Origin: a virus
DNA length: 64,000 nucleotides
Direction: 5' to 3' (one strand)
Virus record (IMG/VR): IMGVR_UViG_3300009158_000031
Location: 1-64,000 of that record
Part shown: positions 5,084 to 26,349 of the stretch, piece by piece
Layout: every line of letters begins with the position of its first letter
Numbering within the stretch: position 1 is the stretch's first letter
Program-made: the position numbers and the translations under genes
The notes under the pieces: model-generated
The model's input: only the letters and a program-made list of their open reading frames with translations
What the model was told of the DNA's origin: nothing
Databases searched by the model: none

Positions 5084-5425
5084 ATGAACAAGCTACCTAC
5101 ATATCAAGAGTTCTTAAATGAATCATTAGTTATCCTTTCTTTGAAAGGTATAATGAAGAATGAATTTATGAACAATATAGAACTTAAGCAAGAGTTCGAA
5201 ACCGCTAGAAGATTATTCTTCGACAATGGTTCATGTTTATTCGATCACATTGAAGGCGATCGATTTACGCTAAGAACGCATTCTACATTCGAAACTTCGG
5301 ATATGGATGCACTCATTACAAAGATCAACGACGAAATTGAAAGGTTTTCTTTCAAGAGAGTCGGTCCGGCTAAAAAGAATATCATTAAAGAAAATCTTTG
5401 GTCTCTTAAAGCCAAACTTAATTGA
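5084..5425 (+). CDS. Hypothetical protein with capsid-targeting-like N-terminus
   Basis: This 113-aa protein begins MNKLPTYQEFLNES. The YQEFLNE|S stretch matches the ten-odd-residue capsid-targeting sequence of T4 internal head proteins, whose prohead protease cuts after a hydrophobic-X-Glu site. The remainder is charged and lacks a recognisable domain. At least five other proteins in the window start the same way (12539, 13664, 62319, 62995, 63300). By analogy it would be packaged in the head and delivered with the DNA; this is inference. Confidence 0.6.
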   Translation: MNKLPTYQEFLNESLVILSLKGIMKNEFMNNIELKQEFETARRLFFDNGSCLFDHIEGDRFTLRTHSTFETSDMDALITKINDEIERFSFKRVGPAKKNIIKENLWSLKAKLN

Positions 5426-5473: not shown

Positions 5474-6184
5474 ATGACAAAATACTTTAAGTATTCTGAC
5501 TTTGAGCAAGCGTTTCTTTGCATTAATGGCGAAATAATTACCAATCCTGAATATCGTTCAACTTCTCGATTAGGTGATATGTTAGAAATTCAAAGTCTTA
5601 CATATGAAGTTGCAGATCCAACAACATATAAATTCACAAACGAAAACATCGGCAGATTAAATTACGATTATGCAGATACATTTTATCAATGGATGATATC
5701 TGGATCTACTGATAATGAAGCACTTCTTAAAGATTATCCTAATGTTGCAAGATTCATGGAAAAACCTAAATCTCCTGATCTTCCAGCAAATTTCAATACA
5801 TTCTATGGTCCTCGTATTCTAGAACAACTACCTCACGTTATCAAAGAACTTAAAGATCATCCTGATACTCGTCGAGCAGTAATTTCTATCCTTGATAAAA
5901 GTGATGTACTTCTTCTCGATAAACCAAATGAAACTCTTGAATTTCCTTGTTGTGATTCTGCAACATTCTCTATTCGTGAAGGTAAGCTGAATATTCACTT
6001 ACATATGCGTTCACAAAATATAGGTCAAGTACTTAAGCTGGATATGTATCTATGGGGTAGATTTCAAACGCAAATTGCTGAAGAATTAGGTTTACCTGTT
6101 GGTAGATTCGTTTCAACTGTAGTTTCTGCTCATGTATTCGAAAAAGATATTGCTTACTTAAATGACTTAATTATTAATTCGTAA
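5474..6184 (+). CDS. Thymidylate synthase family enzyme, probable dCMP hydroxymethylase
   Basis: This 236-aa protein has the TS fold signatures: NTFYGPRI (substrate loop), DTRRAVISI with the phosphate-binding Arg133 and Arg134, and FPCCDSATFSIREGKL with catalytic Cys159, followed by HMRSQN. Thirty-one residues after the catalytic Cys, where thymidylate synthase has the dUMP-selecting Asn (E. coli Asn177), this protein has Asp190 in KLDMYLW. T4 dCMP hydroxymethylase (gp42) has Asp at the same spacing. It therefore probably makes 5-hydroxymethyl-dCMP, using methylene-tetrahydrofolate. The Asp of the usual RSxD motif is Asn here, so activity is not certain. Glycosyltransferases follow at once, as expected of a DNA-modification cluster. 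Confidence 0.75.
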   Translation: MTKYFKYSDFEQAFLCINGEIITNPEYRSTSRLGDMLEIQSLTYEVADPTTYKFTNENIGRLNYDYADTFYQWMISGSTDNEALLKDYPNVARFMEKPKSPDLPANFNTFYGPRILEQLPHVIKELKDHPDTRRAVISILDKSDVLLLDKPNETLEFPCCDSATFSIREGKLNIHLHMRSQNIGQVLKLDMYLWGRFQTQIAEELGLPVGRFVSTVVSAHVFEKDIAYLNDLIINS

Positions 6185-6194
6185 ATCCAAACAA

Positions 6195-7511
6195 ATGAAA
6201 GATAAAAAACTCCAAGTATTCTATGCAGTTCAAGTATCAAACTTTACATTAGTAAATGGCAAACCTAAATGGTTATTGCGAAATGATGCATGCACTAACA
6301 TTGCAATCGGAATCATCTCTACGGTTTTAAAGAGATATCCTGATCAATTCAAATTTTTAATTAAACTTCCTTCTGCTTATGATACAGTAGATGTGGTTCA
6401 ATTAGAAGATCTATTTAAACCAGAATTTCATAAAGATATCGAATTTCTTATTGATGATATCCCTCATTCTCCAGTAACTAGTCGCTATCATTTCGATATG
6501 CAACGATATCTCGTTCATCCTGAATATGCAAAAGCTTTCAGCGAAGTAGATCTTATGATTAATGATGAAAATACATTAACGAAGAATTGGCGAGTACTTT
6601 TCAATGAAATGAAATTAACCATCCCAATCATTTCTACGAATTATTTCCTCGATTCACCTATCGCAAATAAAGTTCCAGAAAAACTTCGTTATTATGAACG
6701 TCAAATGGAATCTTTTATTACATCGGATATTGCTGCATTTCAATGCGAAGCTGGCAGAGTCGAAGCTATGGAAGCTTATGATGTTTTATTTAAGACTCGT
6801 GAGATTCTAGCTCCTCAATCCGTATGGGGTGTTGGTGCACATTATGCCGAAATCGAAGAATATCATACAGATAAAAAATTCGAGATACCTACAATTTACT
6901 TTGGCAATCGTATTTCGGATACTGCAAATCGTTATACTAATTATGATACATTCGCCGAAGCAATTGGTATTCTATCGACTATCACCGATAAACCATTTCG
7001 AGCAGTAATGCTTAATCCAACTCGTAAAGTTACTGCCGATCAATTGAATTTAATTGCAGATCTATCTAAACATCAAGTTGAAGTAATGTCTAACGATGAA
7101 AAATTCACTCGTCAAGATTATCTAACATTCATCAACAAATCTCATATTGCTTGTAACCTATTCGTCACCGAAGTTCATGGTGGTGTTACTCATTGTGAAG
7201 CAATGATGGCTAAGAATATTTTGGTAATGCCTAAAGTAAATAATTACTGGCACAAAATGAAAAAGGCTGGTCATGAAGATTATCCTCTATTCACTGCACT
7301 CGATTCAACGAATTCTCATAAACCAGATGCTCGTGATGTAGCAGAAAAATTGAAGATTGCTCTTAATTATATAGATACTCCTATAGAAAATCAATTAAGA
7401 GAATTATGTCATAATGTCGGTTATAAATACGAATCTTACGAATCTGCTTGTGATCGTATCGTAAATGATATACGTTCGCTTGTTCTTCCTATCTTGAATA
7501 ATAAAAACTAA
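6195..7511 (+). CDS. Glycosyltransferase-like protein (GT-B fold)
   Basis: This 438-aa protein has two Rossmann-like halves. The C-terminal half carries TEVHGGVTHCEAMMAKNILVMP, which resembles the donor-sugar site of GT4-type enzymes (ExFG..xxEAMAxGxPVV). It starts 10 nt after the hydroxymethylase-like gene. The acceptor and donor are unknown. Given its neighbours it could transfer a sugar to modified DNA, or decorate a virion or host glycan. It has no membrane segment. A hairpin follows its stop. Confidence 0.6.
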   Translation: MKDKKLQVFYAVQVSNFTLVNGKPKWLLRNDACTNIAIGIISTVLKRYPDQFKFLIKLPSAYDTVDVVQLEDLFKPEFHKDIEFLIDDIPHSPVTSRYHFDMQRYLVHPEYAKAFSEVDLMINDENTLTKNWRVLFNEMKLTIPIISTNYFLDSPIANKVPEKLRYYERQMESFITSDIAAFQCEAGRVEAMEAYDVLFKTREILAPQSVWGVGAHYAEIEEYHTDKKFEIPTIYFGNRISDTANRYTNYDTFAEAIGILSTITDKPFRAVMLNPTRKVTADQLNLIADLSKHQVEVMSNDEKFTRQDYLTFINKSHIACNLFVTEVHGGVTHCEAMMAKNILVMPKVNNYWHKMKKAGHEDYPLFTALDSTNSHKPDARDVAEKLKIALNYIDTPIENQLRELCHNVGYKYESYESACDRIVNDIRSLVLPILNNKN

Positions 7512-7520
7512 TTAACAATT

Positions 7521-7554
7521 TGACGAGGAGTAATCATTTGGTTACTCCTTTGTC
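7521..7554 (+). terminator. Hairpin, possible terminator or processing site
   Basis: TGACGAGGAGTAA pairs with TTACTCCTTTGTCA across a loop of about 7 nt, with one bulge. It sits in the 60-nt gap between 7511 and 7572. Only a poor U-tract follows, so factor-independent termination would be weak. Confidence 0.5.
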
Positions 7555-7571
7555 ATATAATAATTAAACAT

Positions 7572-8126
7572 ATGGCAAACTTAATTCTACTTGAAGGCTT
7601 ATCCAGAACAGGCAAATCAACTATTTCAAAATCGATTGCTGATGAATTTGGATTTCGTAATTTCTCCATTAAGACTAAGATGCCGGATTATGTACAAAAT
7701 TTACCTGATTTTTATCATGGTATGCACGTTTTAGCAAATGAATTATTCAGATCTTTTCCCCATGAAACTTTCATCTTAGATAGATCTTTTTTATCTGAGA
7801 TGGTTTATTCTCAATTTTTTAACAGACATTCATATATAAATAACGATCAAGTCATTTGCGATTTACTTCTAGATAACAAGTTTATACTTGTACTTCTAGA
7901 TAACAATCATCAAAATTATTTAGATCGTGGACCAAAAGATAAAATCACTTATTCTGAACAAGAATTTATTAAACAGAAAGATCTTTTCCAATGGCACTTC
8001 CATAATTTCCGTGACAAATACGATCCACAATCATGGCGAGATAGATTTTTACACATTGATACATCAATCACAACTCTAGAAGATACAACAAAACAAATTA
8101 AAACAAAGATAAAACAAGTATTATGA
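7572..8126 (+). CDS. P-loop nucleotide kinase (thymidylate kinase/dNMP kinase-like)
   Basis: This 184-aa protein starts MANLILLEGLSRTGKST, with the P-loop GLSRTGKST at residues 9-17. FILDRSFLSEMVYSQ near residues 67-81 is the DR(S/Y)xxS motif of thymidylate kinase and deoxynucleoside kinase relatives. A lid-like segment follows near residues 118-130. It probably phosphorylates a dNMP or deoxynucleoside; the substrate cannot be read from the sequence. It overlaps the epimerase gene by 4 nt (ATGA). If the DNA contains hydroxymethylcytosine, a kinase accepting hm-dCMP would be needed, and this is a candidate. Confidence 0.7.
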   Translation: MANLILLEGLSRTGKSTISKSIADEFGFRNFSIKTKMPDYVQNLPDFYHGMHVLANELFRSFPHETFILDRSFLSEMVYSQFFNRHSYINNDQVICDLLLDNKFILVLLDNNHQNYLDRGPKDKITYSEQEFIKQKDLFQWHFHNFRDKYDPQSWRDRFLHIDTSITTLEDTTKQIKTKIKQVL

Positions 8127-9280
8127 AAAATAAAGCAGCGATAGTAACCGGTAGTTCAGGTCTTATTGGTTCGCAAACGGTTAAATCTCTTATTGAAAAG
8201 GGATATTATGTGATTGGCATTGATAATGATATGCGATCATATTTTTTCGGATCCGATGCATCTACTAAAGAATCTGAACAAAAAATGTTATCTGATTATG
8301 GTAGAGAAAAATTCAATCCTGTAAGTATCGATATTCGAGATTATGAAGGATTGGAATTCGTATTCAAATATCTAACAGAAAATATAACTACTCTTCTTGG
8401 AGAACCAGTTGAATTTGATTTTGATTTAGTTGTTCATACCGCAGCACAACCTTCACATGATTGGGCAGCTAAAGAACCTCTAACTGATTTTTCTGTTAAT
8501 GCAATCGGTACCATGAATTTACTAGAATTAACTCGACTATATGCACCAAAAGCAACCTTCATCTTTACTTCGACTAACAAAGTTTATGGTGATACTCCTA
8601 ATCGTTTGAATTTAGTTGAATTGGAAACTCGATATGAAGCAGTATCTAATCTTTCGAAAAATCTTATCGAGGTAGATGAATTTATGTCAATCGACCATAC
8701 TAAACATTCCATCTTCGGTGCATCTAAAGTTGCTGCTGATATTATGGTTCAAGAATATGGAAGATATTTTGGAATGAATACCGTAGTATTTCGAGGTGGT
8801 TGTTTAACTGGACCTAATCATGCAGGTGCTGAACTTCATGGATTCTTATCTTACTTAATCAAATGTATTGTTAATAACAAACCTTATACCATCTTTGGTT
8901 ATAAAGGAAAACAAGTTCGAGATAACATTCATTCATCAGATCTAGTAAATATGTTCTGGCATTATCATCAAAATCCTATTCCAGGTGCAGTGTATAATGC
9001 AGGTGGTGGTCGAGAAAACAGCACATCTATTCTTGAAGCTATCGCAACCACAAATACTATTCTTAAAGAAGAAAATCCTGAACATAAAGATTGGAAGAAT
9101 TTCAAAATCTCCAATGATGCTCGAATCGGTGACCATCAATGGTATATCTCAGATCTAACTAAATTTAAGACTGATTATCCACAATGGCCTGGAATTACAA
9201 TTTCATTAGATGAAACTATTCGTCAAATAATCAAATTTGAACAAACAAAAACAGCTGAAGTACTAAATGAAGCGAATTAA
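8123..9280 (+). CDS. NAD-dependent nucleotide-sugar epimerase (CDP-paratose 2-epimerase-like)
   Basis: This 385-aa extended short-chain dehydrogenase has the NAD-binding motif GSSGLIGS at residues 10-17 and an Asp-rich strand end (GIDND). A long conserved block FRGGCLTGPNHAGAELHGF, then GYKGKQVRDNIHSSDLV, is typical of the RfbE-like sugar epimerase subfamily. The usual YxxxK active site reads FGASK, so the catalytic Tyr is Phe here; I recall this substitution from relatives of this subfamily. It would interconvert an NDP-sugar used by the adjacent glycosyltransferases. It overlaps the next gene by 14 nt. Confidence 0.78.
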   Translation: MKNKAAIVTGSSGLIGSQTVKSLIEKGYYVIGIDNDMRSYFFGSDASTKESEQKMLSDYGREKFNPVSIDIRDYEGLEFVFKYLTENITTLLGEPVEFDFDLVVHTAAQPSHDWAAKEPLTDFSVNAIGTMNLLELTRLYAPKATFIFTSTNKVYGDTPNRLNLVELETRYEAVSNLSKNLIEVDEFMSIDHTKHSIFGASKVAADIMVQEYGRYFGMNTVVFRGGCLTGPNHAGAELHGFLSYLIKCIVNNKPYTIFGYKGKQVRDNIHSSDLVNMFWHYHQNPIPGAVYNAGGGRENSTSILEAIATTNTILKEENPEHKDWKNFKISNDARIGDHQWYISDLTKFKTDYPQWPGITISLDETIRQIIKFEQTKTAEVLNEAN

Positions 9281-10535
9281 CATTGGCGTAATCATTTATA
9301 CGAAGATTGGTACTAAAACTTCTATTCTTCTAGGAGAATTCGAGTTTTGGAACGATTTTCAACGAATGAACCCTGATTGTGACTTCTATTTTATATCAAT
9401 ATCGAAGAACACAACAAAGAGTATTATTGACCATCAACATCTACTTAACTTTCCAGTTAGGATGATACAGGTGTATGATGTGAAGGATCTTTCCAAGCTA
9501 AATAACCTTTCTGGGATATTTTCATATATGACTAGAAATACCTTCTTTGGAGGTCAAATGAATCCATCATGTGTTCATAATTACGTGATATCTGCTTACT
9601 GTAGCAATACGCTAAACCTTCCTTTATTTATTAGAACTCCTGATTCAGAATATCCCTATTTGGATTATAAGAAAATGGCGGATGTTCGAATTGAGAAAGC
9701 TACACCAAGTACACCTAAATTCATTAGAGAAAATAAACGTTTTCTAGATGTTATGACTGCAGATATCAAATATGAAAATGTTTATTTTGTAGCCAATGGA
9801 TCTCGTCATATGTGTGATTGGGTACAAGATATTGTATACCATGATATTCCAGATGTTATGAGAATAATGGAACCTAAAGAAATTTCTAGAAGAACTCTTT
9901 ATGTTTCGGATGATGTTCTATTCAATCTTCATATTAATAGAGAGCGTTATGCAAATCTAAATGTTGAAGTAAAGAATAATAAGCTTTTGTTTATTGGATT
10001 CCTTTCCGGATCAGTTGCAAAAAATCGTTTAGTTGCTTTAACTAAAATGTTGAAGGAAAAAACCGAAGAAATTCCTATGGATATTATTGGACCTGGAGCA
10101 GATTTGTTGATAGAAGATATTATTCGTGAGGATGTTACTCTTGAAAACCGTTCAGTTTTTGGTGATGAATTTTTCAAGCTACTTAATACATATTTAGCTT
10201 ATGTGTTTATTGGTAAAGGTAATGCGATAAACAAATATGTAAACAAAACAATTTACGATTGTATATCTGCAAAATGTCCTATTGTCGTTTACTCTGCATG
10301 TGATACTAATCAAGCTATTTTTAAGAGCAACGAATATTATTTCTCTAACGAATCCGAACTAAAAACAACCATGGATAAATTAAGAGATCCTGCAATTCGT
10401 AATCGTTGGATCGATGAACAGAAAGCTGATATTGAAGAAAAATTAACACATAACGAAGAGATATTTAAGTTCTCTCAATTCTGTAAGCCTAAAGATCAAG
10501 TTGTTAATAACATTAGAATCGAGCCATTATTCTAA
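9267..10535 (+). CDS. GT-B glycosyltransferase resembling T4 DNA beta-glucosyltransferase
   Basis: This 422-aa protein can be aligned by eye along much of the T4 beta-glucosyltransferase sequence as I recall it. TFFGGQMNP matches that enzyme's NFFGGKPN. LLFIGFLSGSVAKNR matches its central strand and loop, which carries a GGSFRSGQR-like motif. Near the C-terminus VFIGKGNAINKYVNKTIYD is followed by PIVVYSACD and YYFSNESEL. T4 BGT transfers glucose from UDP-glucose to 5-hydroxymethylcytosine in DNA. Together with the hydroxymethylase-like gene at 5474 this suggests glucosylated phage DNA. Identity is low, so another GT-B function remains possible. Confidence 0.55.
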   Translation: MKRINIGVIIYTKIGTKTSILLGEFEFWNDFQRMNPDCDFYFISISKNTTKSIIDHQHLLNFPVRMIQVYDVKDLSKLNNLSGIFSYMTRNTFFGGQMNPSCVHNYVISAYCSNTLNLPLFIRTPDSEYPYLDYKKMADVRIEKATPSTPKFIRENKRFLDVMTADIKYENVYFVANGSRHMCDWVQDIVYHDIPDVMRIMEPKEISRRTLYVSDDVLFNLHINRERYANLNVEVKNNKLLFIGFLSGSVAKNRLVALTKMLKEKTEEIPMDIIGPGADLLIEDIIREDVTLENRSVFGDEFFKLLNTYLAYVFIGKGNAINKYVNKTIYDCISAKCPIVVYSACDTNQAIFKSNEYYFSNESELKTTMDKLRDPAIRNRWIDEQKADIEEKLTHNEEIFKFSQFCKPKDQVVNNIRIEPLF

Positions 10536-10551
10536 TTCATAAAATAATAAA

Positions 10552-11166
10552 ATGAATATATTTGTACTAGATCAAGATCCGAGAATTGCTGCACAAATGC
10601 ATTGTGACAAACATGTTCCAAAAATGATTATCGAACATGCGCAAATGATGACGGCTGCATATTATTCTACTTTAGGTATTAGCCGAAAGAAAGAAATTCC
10701 GGATCAACAATTTGTAGTAAATGAAATGTTTCGCGGTTGGCCTAGAAGAAATGCCGATGGAAGTGAATGGCATTATGCAATATCACATGTCAATCATCCA
10801 TGCACAATTTGGACACGAGCTTCAATCGAGAATTTTAATTGGTTACTAGATTGTACTGAAGAACTTTGTTACGAATTCACTCGTCGTTGGGGTGGTAAAC
10901 ATTCAATCGAAAAGATCGTAGATTGGATGCGTCAAAATCCTCCTAAATTGCCTTCTTCTAAACAAACTCCTTTCGCAATGGCAATGCCGGATTGTTTTAG
11001 AACTACTAATCCGATTGAATCTTATCGTAGATACTATGGCATGAAAACAACTTACATGAAAGTAGCTTGGATTCGAGGAACTCAACCGGATTGGTGGTCA
11101 GATCAATTTGCCAAAGATTGCGTTAATCAATATTATATTGCAAACCCAGCCTTGTTGGTTGGATAA
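10552..11166 (+). CDS. Conserved phage protein of unknown function (HCDKHV family)
   Basis: This 204-aa protein starts MNIFVLDQDPRIAAQMHCDK, followed by HVPKMIIEHAQMM, and has a later HPCTIWTRASIENFNWLL segment. I know this architecture as a widespread conserved phage family without a clearly established function. Conserved His, Cys, Asp and Lys residues in HCDKHVPKM suggest metal binding or catalysis. Many Trp residues lie toward the C-terminus (DWWSDQF). It sits between the BGT-like gene and a group of possible head-packaged proteins. Confidence 0.7.
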   Translation: MNIFVLDQDPRIAAQMHCDKHVPKMIIEHAQMMTAAYYSTLGISRKKEIPDQQFVVNEMFRGWPRRNADGSEWHYAISHVNHPCTIWTRASIENFNWLLDCTEELCYEFTRRWGGKHSIEKIVDWMRQNPPKLPSSKQTPFAMAMPDCFRTTNPIESYRRYYGMKTTYMKVAWIRGTQPDWWSDQFAKDCVNQYYIANPALLVG

Positions 11167-11791: not shown

Positions 11792-12114
11792 ATAAAGACT
11801 GTAATTGTAAGAATTGCGAATGCAAAGAAAGAGAATCTTTTTATCTAACATTCGAAGATTATAAACCTTTTACTGATAGTTATTTCAATGGATCTCTTGT
11901 TCGTAAATTTCCTAAAGAGACACCGGCTCATTTACTCAAATGGCATATAGACGATGAAGATCGTACAATATATCCGGTAGAAGAGAATGATTGGAAATTT
12001 CAATTTGATAATAAGTTACCTATCTCGTTTGATAGTAAAATTGAAATTCCTAAGGGAATTCAACATAGAATAATAAAAGGAACCACCGATCTAATCATCT
12101 TAATCGAAAAGTAA
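11785..12114 (+). CDS. Small protein with Cys-rich N-terminus and cupin-like core
   Basis: This 109-aa protein starts MVNKDCNCKNCECKERE, with four Cys in nine residues (a possible metal site). It continues with a beta-rich core containing LLKWHIDDEDR and ending IEIPKGIQHRIIKGTTDLIILIE. That end resembles the closing motif of cupin-fold proteins (G..H....G....l.v). The function is unknown. Its TAA overlaps the start of the glycosylase gene (TAATG), so the two are probably translationally coupled. Confidence 0.6.
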   Translation: MVNKDCNCKNCECKERESFYLTFEDYKPFTDSYFNGSLVRKFPKETPAHLLKWHIDDEDRTIYPVEENDWKFQFDNKLPISFDSKIEIPKGIQHRIIKGTTDLIILIEK

Positions 12115-12503
12115 TGGCTATTATACAACAAGAATTTCAACACGATCCATGGAAAATGCTTATAGGTTGCATCATGCTAAATCAAACTAGCAATAAAAAT
12201 GTACGCCAAGTAATATACGCATTCTTCGAGAAATGGCCAAATCCACTTTCCGTTTTACGAGCAAATCCAGATGATATTCGAGAACACATCAGACCTTTAG
12301 GATTCTATAATCGTAGAACTGCTACTATACAAAAATTCTCACAAGATTACATATCTAAATCTTTTAATCGAATAAGTGAACTTCATGGCATTGGCAAATA
12401 TGCCGAAGATTCATATGAAATCTTTATTCGCGGTAATGAAAATGTACAACCAACCGATAAGATATTGATTCGTTATCTTGCCGGTGAATTTATCGATCAA
12501 TAA
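12114..12503 (+). CDS. HhH-GPD DNA glycosylase, MBD4-like
   Basis: This 129-aa protein is a minimal helix-hairpin-helix base-excision glycosylase. It starts with DPWKMLIGCIMLNQTSNKNV, where the family usually has PW..LI..iLlqqT. The HhH is LHGIGKYAEDSYEIF at residues 90-104, and the catalytic Asp115 lies in VQPTDKIL. The GKYaeDSYeIF and P.D patterns are closest to the catalytic domain of the MBD4 thymine glycosylase, which removes T or U, and some oxidised pyrimidines, opposite G. It has no iron-sulfur Cys cluster, unlike Nth and MutY. It could repair deaminated (modified) cytosines in phage DNA or attack host DNA. Confidence 0.8.
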   Translation: MAIIQQEFQHDPWKMLIGCIMLNQTSNKNVRQVIYAFFEKWPNPLSVLRANPDDIREHIRPLGFYNRRTATIQKFSQDYISKSFNRISELHGIGKYAEDSYEIFIRGNENVQPTDKILIRYLAGEFIDQ

Positions 12504-14276: not shown

Positions 14277-14882
14277 ATGCCTAAAACATTCATGAAATAT
14301 CAGGATTTCGTTGATCCTAAAAGATCAGGGAAATATCAGAGCATCACGATATTTGATGTTGATGATACGTTAGTCGTAACTAAATCTCAAATTAAAGTAA
14401 TTGATACTAATACCAATAAGTCTTTTACTTTAACTCCGGCAGAATTTAATGAATTTGAAAAGAAATCTCATCATGAAATGGATTATTCAGATTTCAAAAA
14501 CCTAGATATTCTAAAGGCCGGTAAAATTATAGAAAATATCTTCTCTATCCTTAAGAAAGAAATGCGTAAAGGCGGAAGAGTTGGTATTATCACTGCCAGA
14601 GACGATCGAAATCTAATCTATCAATTTCTACTTCATCATGGAGTAGTGGTTAATCCAAATTACATATTTGCAGTTAATGATCCTGAACTTGAATTTACTG
14701 GAAGCGTAGCTGAAAAGAAAAAACAAGCCTTTATAGAATTAATAAAGATTGGATTTAGAGACTTTACATTTTATGACGATGATGCTGAAAATATACGAAT
14801 TGCTAAAGAGTTAGATGGTGAAATTGAAGGTATACATATTAAGACTAAACATGTAAAGGTAAGATGGAACAACAAAGACTGA
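14277..14882 (+). CDS. HAD-superfamily phosphatase
   Basis: This 201-aa protein has HAD motif I DVDDTL at residues 27-32 (nucleophile Asp27, general acid Asp29). Motif II is the Thr of GIITARD near residue 105, Lys residues for motif III lie near 145, and motif IV is FYDDDAEN near residue 163. A nucleotidase or polynucleotide 3'-phosphatase (as in T4 Pnk) is possible; no kinase domain is present. Its first residues MPKTFMKYQDFVDPK resemble the capsid-targeting N-termini nearby but lack the Glu cleavage site. It overlaps the deaminase gene by 19 nt. Confidence 0.78.
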   Translation: MPKTFMKYQDFVDPKRSGKYQSITIFDVDDTLVVTKSQIKVIDTNTNKSFTLTPAEFNEFEKKSHHEMDYSDFKNLDILKAGKIIENIFSILKKEMRKGGRVGIITARDDRNLIYQFLLHHGVVVNPNYIFAVNDPELEFTGSVAEKKKQAFIELIKIGFRDFTFYDDDAENIRIAKELDGEIEGIHIKTKHVKVRWNNKD

Positions 14883-15343
14883 TACACCGAAACGATCAAA
14901 AGATTGATACATTCGCAGAAATCGTTGAATCGATTGCTACTTTATCTGCCGCATCAACTAAGAAAGTTGCATGTATGGCTATTCACAAAAATTTTATTAA
15001 GATTGCATCCTTTGGATATAATGGATCTTATGCTGGTGCTCCCATCAACGAAACAACTGGAACCGAAGAAGATTCGCTAGAACCTGGTAATTCAGGATTT
15101 ATTCATGCAGAAGTTAACATGATTTCGAAATTTCGAGAACATGATCCTGAAAATTATATCGTTTTTCTTACGCTTTCTCCTTGCAAAATGTGCACTAAGA
15201 TTCTAGTTAATTCTGGATTTAAAATGGTGTATTGGTTAGAAGATTATCGAGAACAAGAACATCTCACTATTTTCGATGAATGTGGAATTCATTATGGTAA
15301 TATAAACAAACTCAAAAAAGATTATTTCAAATTAGTAAAATGA
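14864..15343 (+). CDS. Deoxycytidylate (dCMP) deaminase
   Basis: This 159-aa zinc deaminase has the HAE motif with His81 and proton-shuttle Glu83, and the zinc ligands Cys107 and Cys110 in SPCKMC. The substrate loop FGYNGSYAGAPIN at about residues 50-62 matches dCMP deaminases (GYNGxPxG). It would convert dCMP to dUMP, supplying dTTP synthesis. It overlaps the HAD gene before it by 19 nt and the NDP kinase gene after it by 4 nt. In a phage with modified cytosine it also diverts unmodified dCMP. Confidence 0.85.
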   Translation: MEQQRLIHRNDQKIDTFAEIVESIATLSAASTKKVACMAIHKNFIKIASFGYNGSYAGAPINETTGTEEDSLEPGNSGFIHAEVNMISKFREHDPENYIVFLTLSPCKMCTKILVNSGFKMVYWLEDYREQEHLTIFDECGIHYGNINKLKKDYFKLVK

Positions 15344-15762
15344 AATATACTCTAACAATTCTAAAACCAGATGCAATATCTCGTGGAATAGAATCTAAAA
15401 TCACCAAACACATAACCGATGCCGGTTTTCAAATTGCCGCTCGTAAAAGAATTCACCTAACAAATGAAGAGGCCTACGATTTCTATGAGGTACACAAAGA
15501 CAAACCTTTCTTTAGATCTCTTGTAGATTACATGACTTCTGGAGCTTGTGTATTTATGGTTCTTCGTAATGAGAATTCTCCTAATGCAATAGATCATTTT
15601 CGTAAGTTAATAGGATCTACCGATCCGGCTGAAGCAGAGGAAGGAACCATTCGTAAAATGTATGCAGAATCCCTAGAAAGAAACTCTATCCATGGATCTG
15701 ATTCACCGGAATCAGTTATTAAGGAGTGTGATCTTATGTTTCCGGAATTATCGTTCAATTAA
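15340..15762 (+). CDS. ndk: Nucleoside diphosphate kinase
   Basis: This 140-aa protein has the family's usual length and signatures. LTILKPDAISRG at the start contains the conserved Lys, and the catalytic His118 lies in NSIHGSDSPESV, with the terminal block ECDLMFPE. The enzyme transfers phosphate from ATP to any (d)NDP through a phospho-His intermediate. The region before the active site is slightly divergent (EEGTIRKMYAES rather than GtIRgdfa). It is coupled to the dCMP deaminase gene by an ATGA overlap, so both belong to the dNTP supply operon. Confidence 0.93.
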   Translation: MKYTLTILKPDAISRGIESKITKHITDAGFQIAARKRIHLTNEEAYDFYEVHKDKPFFRSLVDYMTSGACVFMVLRNENSPNAIDHFRKLIGSTDPAEAEEGTIRKMYAESLERNSIHGSDSPESVIKECDLMFPELSFN

Positions 15763-24603: not shown

Positions 24604-26349
24604 ATGGCAAATGGTAGTACCCCACAGAATATAAATGCAACCGAGTATTATGGTATTGTTGGTGCACCGGAAAATGGTGGAAAAGCAATAATCGGTTCTT
24701 TCTATGATGGAACCTATGATTGGCCAGCACCAAAACCGGTAAAGGCTCAAGGACAAGAAATTACATCTTCTCTTCAAGGCAGAAAAGCTCCAAGTTCAAT
24801 ATTCAATAGATATGCCATATTTTTCTATAATAATCGAGTTGGATCGGTTGGTACTACAACTGATCAATATCTAGATGATCCCAAATGGTATACTGATGCA
24901 GAAAAGAAGAGAGTTCAAAATCCTACGGCTGCACAAATTATTAAATGGTCAAGAGAAAGTAAACAGGCTAATCAAGCCGATTTTGCATGGGAAGATTTCC
25001 TTTGGTGTAAGAATTATGGAGTAGTTCCAAATAATTATATGATTACTTTACGTCGTTTTAAGATGCCAGTTAATGATGATCTTTTAGATGCTGGAAAAAA
25101 TCCTGCTCCGGATGTTGGTCGTATGATTGCTTGGGTTGATGGAGAAGCTAATACATGGGAAGCAGTTGGTTTGAAATGGACACAAAAATTAAAATGGAAG
25201 GATCTTGAATCGAAAGTTAGTGAGGTAACCTCTTCAAGTCAAGCTTCCGGTAATGAAGGTGCCGCTCTTTCGAAAAAGATGCCAATCCTCGGAGCTGTCG
25301 TACAACAAGGGTCATATTTGTCTCAAAAGGACAATGCACAATCATCTTTAGCCGGAAATAACAAAGGTCAATCATTTGACCCATATTCCGATCCATCTAA
25401 AATTTATGGAAATATTAATGTAATTGAAAAGATGATTATTAGAGATAGAGGTTTAGACTTTACTCAAGAGATGACTGTCAAATTTGAATTTGAATTGCGA
25501 TCTATCGATGGAATAAATCCTAGAATTGCAATGTTAGATTTACTATCAAATGTAATGGTATGCACTTATAATAAAGGTCAATGGTGGGGTGGAGAAATTC
25601 GTTTTACTGGAGGAGCAAATTCTCGTAACATTAAACCTTTAGGAAATCCTGCGCTATTAGCTTCTGGTGATTATGGTGGATATTTAAAATCATTAACCTC
25701 TGGAATATCTGAAAGAATTGGTTCATTAACCGGTGGTGCTGGACTTTCTCTTGAAGGTATTGGTAATGCCGCTAAAAATCTAGGAGGTAATTTGATGGCT
25801 AAAATTGCCGGAGGTGCTTTAGATGATATGGGTAGACCGGATCCATCAGCAATGAACGGTATTCAATCTCTTCTAAGCGGAGCTGATACTGGAGAATGGC
25901 ATCTTACAGTTGGAAATCCAATGAATCCTATTCTTATGGTAGGTAATCTTGTATTAGATAAAACTGATGTTAAAATACATGGTGCATTGGGATTAGATGA
26001 TTTTCCTACGAAACTAGAAGTTGTATGTACATTAAAACCTGCAAGATCTAGAGATTTAAACGATATTATGGGAATGTTTCATAGAGGAGGTAGAACTTAT
26101 TTAACAAATCCTCCAGCTGCACAAAAATTTGGAGATGGATCGAAACAATTAAATCCAGGAGTTACTCCAAAACATCCTAAGAAAAATAAAAAATCGCCAA
26201 AAGTTGGAAGTGGACAAGATGCACAGAAATTTTATTATGCCGATGCATCATTCTTTTCAAATGATGCTAGAGCTAAGGCTCGATTCCCTAATCAAACGGA
26301 TGAAGCTGCAAAAGCAATCCTTCAACAAGTGGCAGGAATGCTAGATTAA
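24604..26349 (+). CDS. Putative baseplate structural protein
   Basis: This 581-aa protein begins MANGSTPQNINATEYYGIVG and has Trp-rich middle blocks (FAWEDFLWCKNYGVVPNNYM). A small-residue stretch lies near residues 360-410. The conserved-looking end GEWHLTVGNPMNPILMVGNL leads into GLDDFPTKLEVVCTLKPARS and a His/Arg-containing DIMGMFHRGGRTYL. It opens the tail/baseplate operon and is followed by gp53- and gp27-like genes, so a baseplate or tail role is inferred from position. I recognise no T4 counterpart. Confidence 0.65.
   Translation: MANGSTPQNINATEYYGIVGAPENGGKAIIGSFYDGTYDWPAPKPVKAQGQEITSSLQGRKAPSSIFNRYAIFFYNNRVGSVGTTTDQYLDDPKWYTDAEKKRVQNPTAAQIIKWSRESKQANQADFAWEDFLWCKNYGVVPNNYMITLRRFKMPVNDDLLDAGKNPAPDVGRMIAWVDGEANTWEAVGLKWTQKLKWKDLESKVSEVTSSSQASGNEGAALSKKMPILGAVVQQGSYLSQKDNAQSSLAGNNKGQSFDPYSDPSKIYGNINVIEKMIIRDRGLDFTQEMTVKFEFELRSIDGINPRIAMLDLLSNVMVCTYNKGQWWGGEIRFTGGANSRNIKPLGNPALLASGDYGGYLKSLTSGISERIGSLTGGAGLSLEGIGNAAKNLGGNLMAKIAGGALDDMGRPDPSAMNGIQSLLSGADTGEWHLTVGNPMNPILMVGNLVLDKTDVKIHGALGLDDFPTKLEVVCTLKPARSRDLNDIMGMFHRGGRTYLTNPPAAQKFGDGSKQLNPGVTPKHPKKNKKSPKVGSGQDAQKFYYADASFFSNDARAKARFPNQTDEAAKAILQQVAGMLD

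Follow-up and report, generated by a model that had tools for sequence, protein, structure and literature searches.

A gene cluster in a 64,000-nucleotide stretch of viral DNA (positions 1 to 64,000 of the 254 kb record IMGVR_UViG_3300009158_000031; hereafter the window) places a thymidylate synthase (TS)-family gene among glycosyltransferase and kinase genes, and raises the question of which modified base it serves to make. The initial annotation read the cluster as a cytosine-hypermodification cassette that joins a dCMP hydroxymethylase-like enzyme to a relative of T4 DNA beta-glucosyltransferase (BGT), with glucosylated (or otherwise glycosylated) hydroxymethylcytosine as the possible product. 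Our analysis supports a cytosine-hypermodification cassette with a BGT-like glycosyltransferase, but not glucosylated hydroxymethylcytosine, given the clade of the synthase and the replacement of its folate-binding Asp by Asn. The genes are probably a DNA-cytosine hypermodification set of a Bacteroidota jumbo (giant) phage, and the product is likely glycosylated 5-hydroxycytosine, which may carry a second sugar.

Chemical precedents for such a base come from two phage groups. In Mosigvirus DNA, HPLC-MS places arabinose directly on the C5 oxygen of cytosine, the earlier hydroxymethyl assignment having been an error, and the precursor of this 5-arabinosyl-dC is made by a TS-family 5-hydroxy-dCMP synthase via 5-hydroxy-dCMP (5-hodCMP) (PMC13390438). 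Shewanella phage Thanatos, which has a TS-family gene of 237 amino acids, carries a deoxypentose O-linked to C5 of dC (PMC12838424). The chemistry of these phages makes 5-hydroxylation, rather than hydroxymethylation, the best-supported first step for the present cassette.

The TS-family gene (5474..6184, + strand) encodes a predicted 5-hodCMP synthase of 236 amino acids (Pfam PF00303, 4.3e-13; phrog_160, 1e-35) with PDB relatives 9iqu, 9iqc and 9ir2. As had been claimed, its nucleophile Cys159 and its cytosine-reading Asp190 lie 31 residues apart, in ungapped register with Cys148 and Asp179 of T4 gp42. Asp190 indicates a preference for cytosine, but it does not separate 5-hydroxy from 5-hydroxymethyl chemistry. 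The folate-binding Asp of gp42 (D171) is not present, its equivalent being Asn182. The counterpart of the gp42 catalytic Glu60 is Phe70 when the protein is aligned to gp42, or Asp68 when it is aligned to dUMP hydroxymethylases, and Glu occupies neither position. Both the folate Asp and Glu60 are important for the function of gp42 and TS.

The synthase is 52.8% identical to RB69 ORF048 and 24% identical to T4 gp42 by direct comparison. Its best matches among 50,697 phage records are from RB69-like and allied phages of Escherichia, Klebsiella, Acinetobacter, Proteus and Yersinia (50-54%), after which identity in the phage database drops from about 50% to 35% and below. A maximum-likelihood tree places it in a subclade of enzymes from uncultivated phages (support 98/98) within an RB69-type clade that stands apart from gp42, td and dUMP hydroxymethylases, with the joining of gp42 and td a possible long-branch effect. 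All 27 members of the RB69-type clade keep the cytosine-reading Asp and carry Asn at the folate-binding position, where each of eight outgroup enzymes (TS, gp42 and dUMP hydroxymethylases) has Asp. No acidic residue is conserved within the clade in either the Phe70 or the Asp68 column. The nearest relatives, from contigs L023 (66%) and L026 (59%), are set within full RB69-type arabinose cassettes, which ties the clade to the 5-hydroxycytosine (5-hodC) pathway. By sequence, then, the enzyme is a member of the RB69-type 5-hydroxy-dCMP synthase clade and not of the gp42 clade, and its hydroxymethylase label is probably wrong. Its 5-hydroxylating activity we infer from clade membership, carrying it over from one clade in the literature.

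These data bear directly on a T4-like pathway, in which a dCMP hydroxymethylase would make hmdCMP and the BGT-like enzyme would glucosylate hmC in DNA. Although the TS fold, Asp190 and the true BGT-family kinship of the second protein (see below) are all compatible with it, such a pathway is unlikely given that the synthase belongs to the 5-hodCMP clade (53% versus 24% identity), that Asn replaces its folate-binding Asp, and that three of five contigs with the same synthase cassette lack a 9267-type gene. Glucosylated hmC was rejected as the best reading on the basis of clade and residues.

The family databases give the synthase a plainer name. Pfam and NCBIfam call it only "thymidylate synthase", with scores below the NCBIfam cut-offs, which would suit an ordinary thymidylate or uridylate enzyme, or a redundant one, in a phage with unmodified DNA. 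We consider this very improbable, since Asp190 replaces the Asn that reads dUMP, since genes of this type are in conserved linkage with glycosyltransferases, and since the record holds a separate, strong thymidylate synthase at 204810-205871 (1.1e-97), which leaves the window's enzyme free for another task.

A protein family that hydroxylates pyrimidines in RNA also occurs near some of these synthases. RlhA and TrhP, of the peptidase-U32 family, depend on prephenate to make 5-hydroxycytidine and 5-hydroxyuridine in RNA (PMC6599085). The RB69 "peptidase" ORF050 (L015:26492-27661), which adjoins the 5-hodCMP synthase, belongs to the same family (PF01136). Other U32-family proteins are found at L095:8296-10130 and L090:6114-7184, and downstream of the L095 homologue (55%) lies a shikimate-pathway DAHP synthase. 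Together, the family and its DAHP synthase neighbour suggest a prephenate-dependent route to 5-hydroxylation in some 5-hodC phages. An obligatory U32 hydroxylase was rejected: the protein is found in RB69, phiP4-3, L090 and L095 but was undetected in PhT2, phiM9, L023 and the present phage, whose 254 kb record is linear and possibly incomplete, and it appears not to be a required part.

The gene directly downstream of the synthase (6195..7511, + strand) encodes a GT-B glycosyltransferase that we predict to be the first to act on 5-hydroxycytosine in DNA. Its AF2 model (pLDDT 81, pTM 0.84) has a GT-B fold with GT-B matches in both the PDB and BFVD, the best PDB matches being GT4-like retaining enzymes at TM of about 0.5-0.6. 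This bears out the expectation of a further glycosyltransferase nearby, and it is this gene, not the BGT-like one, that proves to be the conserved glycosyltransferase of the cassette. In all five close contigs it directly follows the synthase and adjoins the dNMP kinase gene, the slot held by phrog_3891 in RB69-type phages. The phrog_3891 family includes RB69 ORF046/047, presumed to be the DNA arabinosyltransferase. Its HMM finds no match in the 254 kb record, and among the 19 records searched the two families never co-occur: nine RB69-type records contain phrog_3891, and every record with the 6195-type enzyme lacks it. Nevertheless, an alignment of the two families scores 34.6, whereas 200 shuffles reach no more than 27.8 and nine other families no more than 22.8, and both contain an FxxRISD-like block (hhalign probability 22%, P 0.001). 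These values suggest that the families are distant homologues, related by deep homology. We also tried the 6195 enzyme as a homologue of ORF003c and found no signal. RB69 ORF046 and ORF047 (L015 24597-25497) together span the full length of one phrog_3891 protein, which is encoded as a single chain in other phages; the ORF046 frame contains one TAG stop.

The position of this gene is also pertinent to the possibility that the synthase modifies dC while the glycosyltransferases and the epimerase build glycans for virion proteins or the host surface, leaving 5-hydroxycytosine bare or glycosylated by the host. Relatives of the epimerase do reside in large phage glycan clusters, and further glycosyltransferase clusters lie at 171-176 kb and 242-247 kb of the record. 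Such a division of labour seems rather unlikely, however, since in each of the five close contigs the 6195-type gene lies immediately after the synthase and adjoins the dNMP kinase, where it takes the slot of the presumed RB69 DNA-sugar transferase. Moreover, bare 5-hydroxycytosine is mutagenic.

The second glycosyltransferase (9267..10535, + strand) is a 422-amino-acid protein that contains the FFGG and NKTIYD blocks. A single-sequence search yields only a weak match, to phrog_7922 (E 0.025). When the protein and its sole other homologue (39% identity, in L092) are compared by hhalign to a profile of seven T4-type BGTs, the match reaches E 3.9e-8, with a probability of 95% and a score of 64. 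Shuffling the columns 200 times never gave a score above 24, and none of nine unrelated families exceeded 18. The alignment is collinear over most of the length. The likeness to T4 BGT, as initially proposed, is thus real beyond chance. By profile comparison the protein is a remote, GT63-like relative of T4 beta-glucosyltransferase encoded by an accessory gene, and a candidate second sugar transferase. It could transfer glucose from host UDP-glucose. Its AF2 model, made without an alignment, has a pLDDT of 31.5 and was not used.

Enzymes for the nucleotide pool are close by: the kinases (at 1717 and 7572) and the dCMP deaminase that the initial annotation had noted, and a nucleoside diphosphate kinase (NDK). 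The gene at 7572..8126 (+ strand) encodes a P-loop deoxynucleoside monophosphate kinase, a predicted 5-hodCMP kinase, of family phrog_761 (1.6e-16). This is the family of RB69 ORF045 (1.6e-45), which lies beside the RB69 synthase, and the kinase is kept in relatives of the present phage. The dCMP deaminase (14864..15343, + strand; PF00383 5.8e-14, phrog_174 3.5e-25) is followed by the NDK (15340..15762, + strand; PF00334 3.7e-46), which could carry 5-hodCDP to 5-hodCTP. The recommended search of the rest of the genome for a dCTPase revealed no T4 gp56-type enzyme in the linear, possibly incomplete 254 kb record. This absence, which weighs against the proposed cassette, is tentative, the Pfam model having matched in RB69, PhT2 and T4 but not in phiP4-3 in a control. 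The record does encode a MazG-domain protein, at 196.6 kb.

Other neighbours include a phrog_624 protein with weak Pyr_excise likeness (10552..11166, + strand; phrog_624 3.1e-49), which follows the cassette in related phages too (57-64% identity in L025, L057/L059 and L089), and an HhH-GPD base-excision glycosylase (12114..12503, + strand; PF00730 2.3e-12), which probably does likewise. The C-terminal part of the protein at 16966-17955 matches the STELLO glycosyltransferase family (PF03385, 6.5e-11).

Sugar supply is represented by an NAD-dependent nucleotide-sugar epimerase of the CDP-tyvelose 2-epimerase type (8123..9280, + strand; PDB 9rl0/1orr, E about 1e-31), which is 65-82% identical to its counterparts in cassette relatives. 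The catalytic Tyr of the SDR YxxxK motif is Phe (HSxFGxSK) in this protein and in all 11 homologues examined (12 of 12), including those of huge-phage glycan clusters. The family also occurs in large phage glycan clusters without a 5474-type synthase, and some of the cassette genes could therefore act on other glycans. Neither the RB69 arabinose-supply genes (arabinose-5-P isomerase and bifunctional NTP-transferase) nor ORF003c has a BLAST match among the ORFs of the genome. Together with the affinity of the epimerase to CDP-tyvelose 2-epimerases, this indicates that the sugar is probably not arabinose.

Related uncultivated phages share a conserved unit of synthase, 6195-type glycosyltransferase, dNMP kinase and sugar epimerase, found in L025 (294 kb), L089 (246 kb), L057/L059 and L092. 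Around this unit the sugar genes vary: L057 adds another glycosyltransferase and extra genes of the SDR and GDP-mannose-dehydratase types, L089 has an SDR and a glycosyltransferase, L092 has the 9267-type glycosyltransferase with an aminotransferase fragment and a NeuD-type acyltransferase, and L025 has none. The L023 and L026 synthases are instead accompanied by the RB69-type set of an ORF047-like protein, arabinose-5-P isomerase and bifunctional NTP-transferase. The cassette genes are under purifying selection, with dN/dS of about 0.14-0.29 at saturated dS.

The homologies, the place of the synthase in the tree, its diagnostic residues, the conserved order of the genes and the GT-B fold lead us to think it probable that the phage replaces cytosine with glycosylated 5-hydroxycytosine through the combined action of the 5-hodCMP synthase, the kinases, the 6195 glycosyltransferase, the epimerase and the BGT-like enzyme. 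Cys159 of the synthase would activate C5 of dCMP and Asp190 would select cytosine, with a hydroxyl rather than a hydroxymethyl group placed on C5. The 7572 kinase and the 15340 NDK would raise 5-hodCMP to 5-hodCTP for insertion by the polymerase. After replication, the 6195 GT-B enzyme would link a sugar, provided with the help of the epimerase, to the 5-OH, and the BGT-like enzyme may add a second or alternative sugar. The 5-hydroxylation (from clade membership), the identity of the sugar and the order of transfer are predictions of this model, as is a protective role for the base.

Known systems resemble this arrangement in part. The RB69/Mosigvirus 5-arabinosyl-dC pathway (ORF048, ORF045, ORF046/047 and ORF003c) has the same synthase clade, the same kinase family and the same TS-glycosyltransferase-kinase order (TS-phrog_3891-phrog_761 versus TS-6195-phrog_761). 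The present Bacteroidota jumbo phage differs in having another glycosyltransferase family in the slot, plus the epimerase and the BGT-like enzyme, whereas homologues of arabinose-5-P isomerase, NTP-transferase, the U32 protein and ORF003c were undetected in it. T4 likewise combines a TS-fold cytosine enzyme with a BGT-family glycosyltransferase (gp42 and b-gt), but the present synthase is of another clade and without the folate Asp, and its BGT-like gene is accessory, highly diverged and longer (422 versus 351 amino acids). Thanatos also has a TS-family gene and its sugar is directly on the C5 oxygen (PMC12838424), but it uses an RB69-type ORF052_053c homologue, undetected in the present phage, and a UDP-xylose pyrophosphorylase. 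The cultured Maribacter phage Molly_1, a Bacteroidota phage, similarly groups sugar genes with a TS-family gene (L020:1267-6026): a UDP-glucose dehydrogenase, an epimerase and an annotated beta-glucosyltransferase adjoin a TS-family gene with Asn at the 190 position, of the uracil type. This cluster is possibly one for thymine hypermodification. Its "beta glucosyl transferase", tried as a relative of the 9267 protein, gives no match.

The assignment to Bacteroidota phages, already made initially, is supported by the large structural protein at 24604, whose closest relatives are from Tenacibaculum phages PTm1, PTm5 and pT24, Chryseobacterium, Flavobacterium and Prevotella Lak phages, and Sphingomonas phage PAU, the hosts being mostly Bacteroidota. 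Two scans of 84,980 bacterial and archaeal genomes with short peptide patterns found no match to the synthase and the 6195 glycosyltransferase. About 30 ORFs of the 254 kb record, encoding small to mid-size proteins (for example at 5084, 13664, 133186-137603 and 217410-224666), begin with a common N-terminal tag, roughly M-K-x-I-x-T-[FY]-x-x-F-[LV]-N-E, which is present too in L025, L057, L089 and L026.

Glycosylated 5-hydroxycytosine, recognised in 2025-2026 in T4-related phages, would thus extend to Bacteroidota jumbo phages with other sugar enzymes. A 2025 study reportedly found the base in diverse viruses, and lineages like the present phage may already be among them. We suggest, tentatively, that the base here is an undescribed one: a non-arabinose sugar on 5-hydroxycytosine, possibly a disaccharide, attached by the 6195 enzyme as the representative of a new GT-B family and then lengthened by an enzyme of the BGT superfamily that acts on 5-hydroxy- rather than 5-hydroxymethylcytosine, with relatives swapping sugar genes around a constant synthase-glycosyltransferase-kinase-epimerase core. 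Asp190 together with Asn at the folate Asp position offers a sequence signature that separates 5-hydroxy- from 5-hydroxymethylcytosine phages, whose enzymes currently receive the same names, "thymidylate synthase" or "dCMP hydroxymethylase", from annotation pipelines. Sugar-coated 5-hydroxycytosine would shield the phage genome from bacterial DNA-cutting defences, and we predict that such phages escape Bacteroidota restriction and CRISPR systems that read plain cytosine while facing modification-dependent (type IV) ones.
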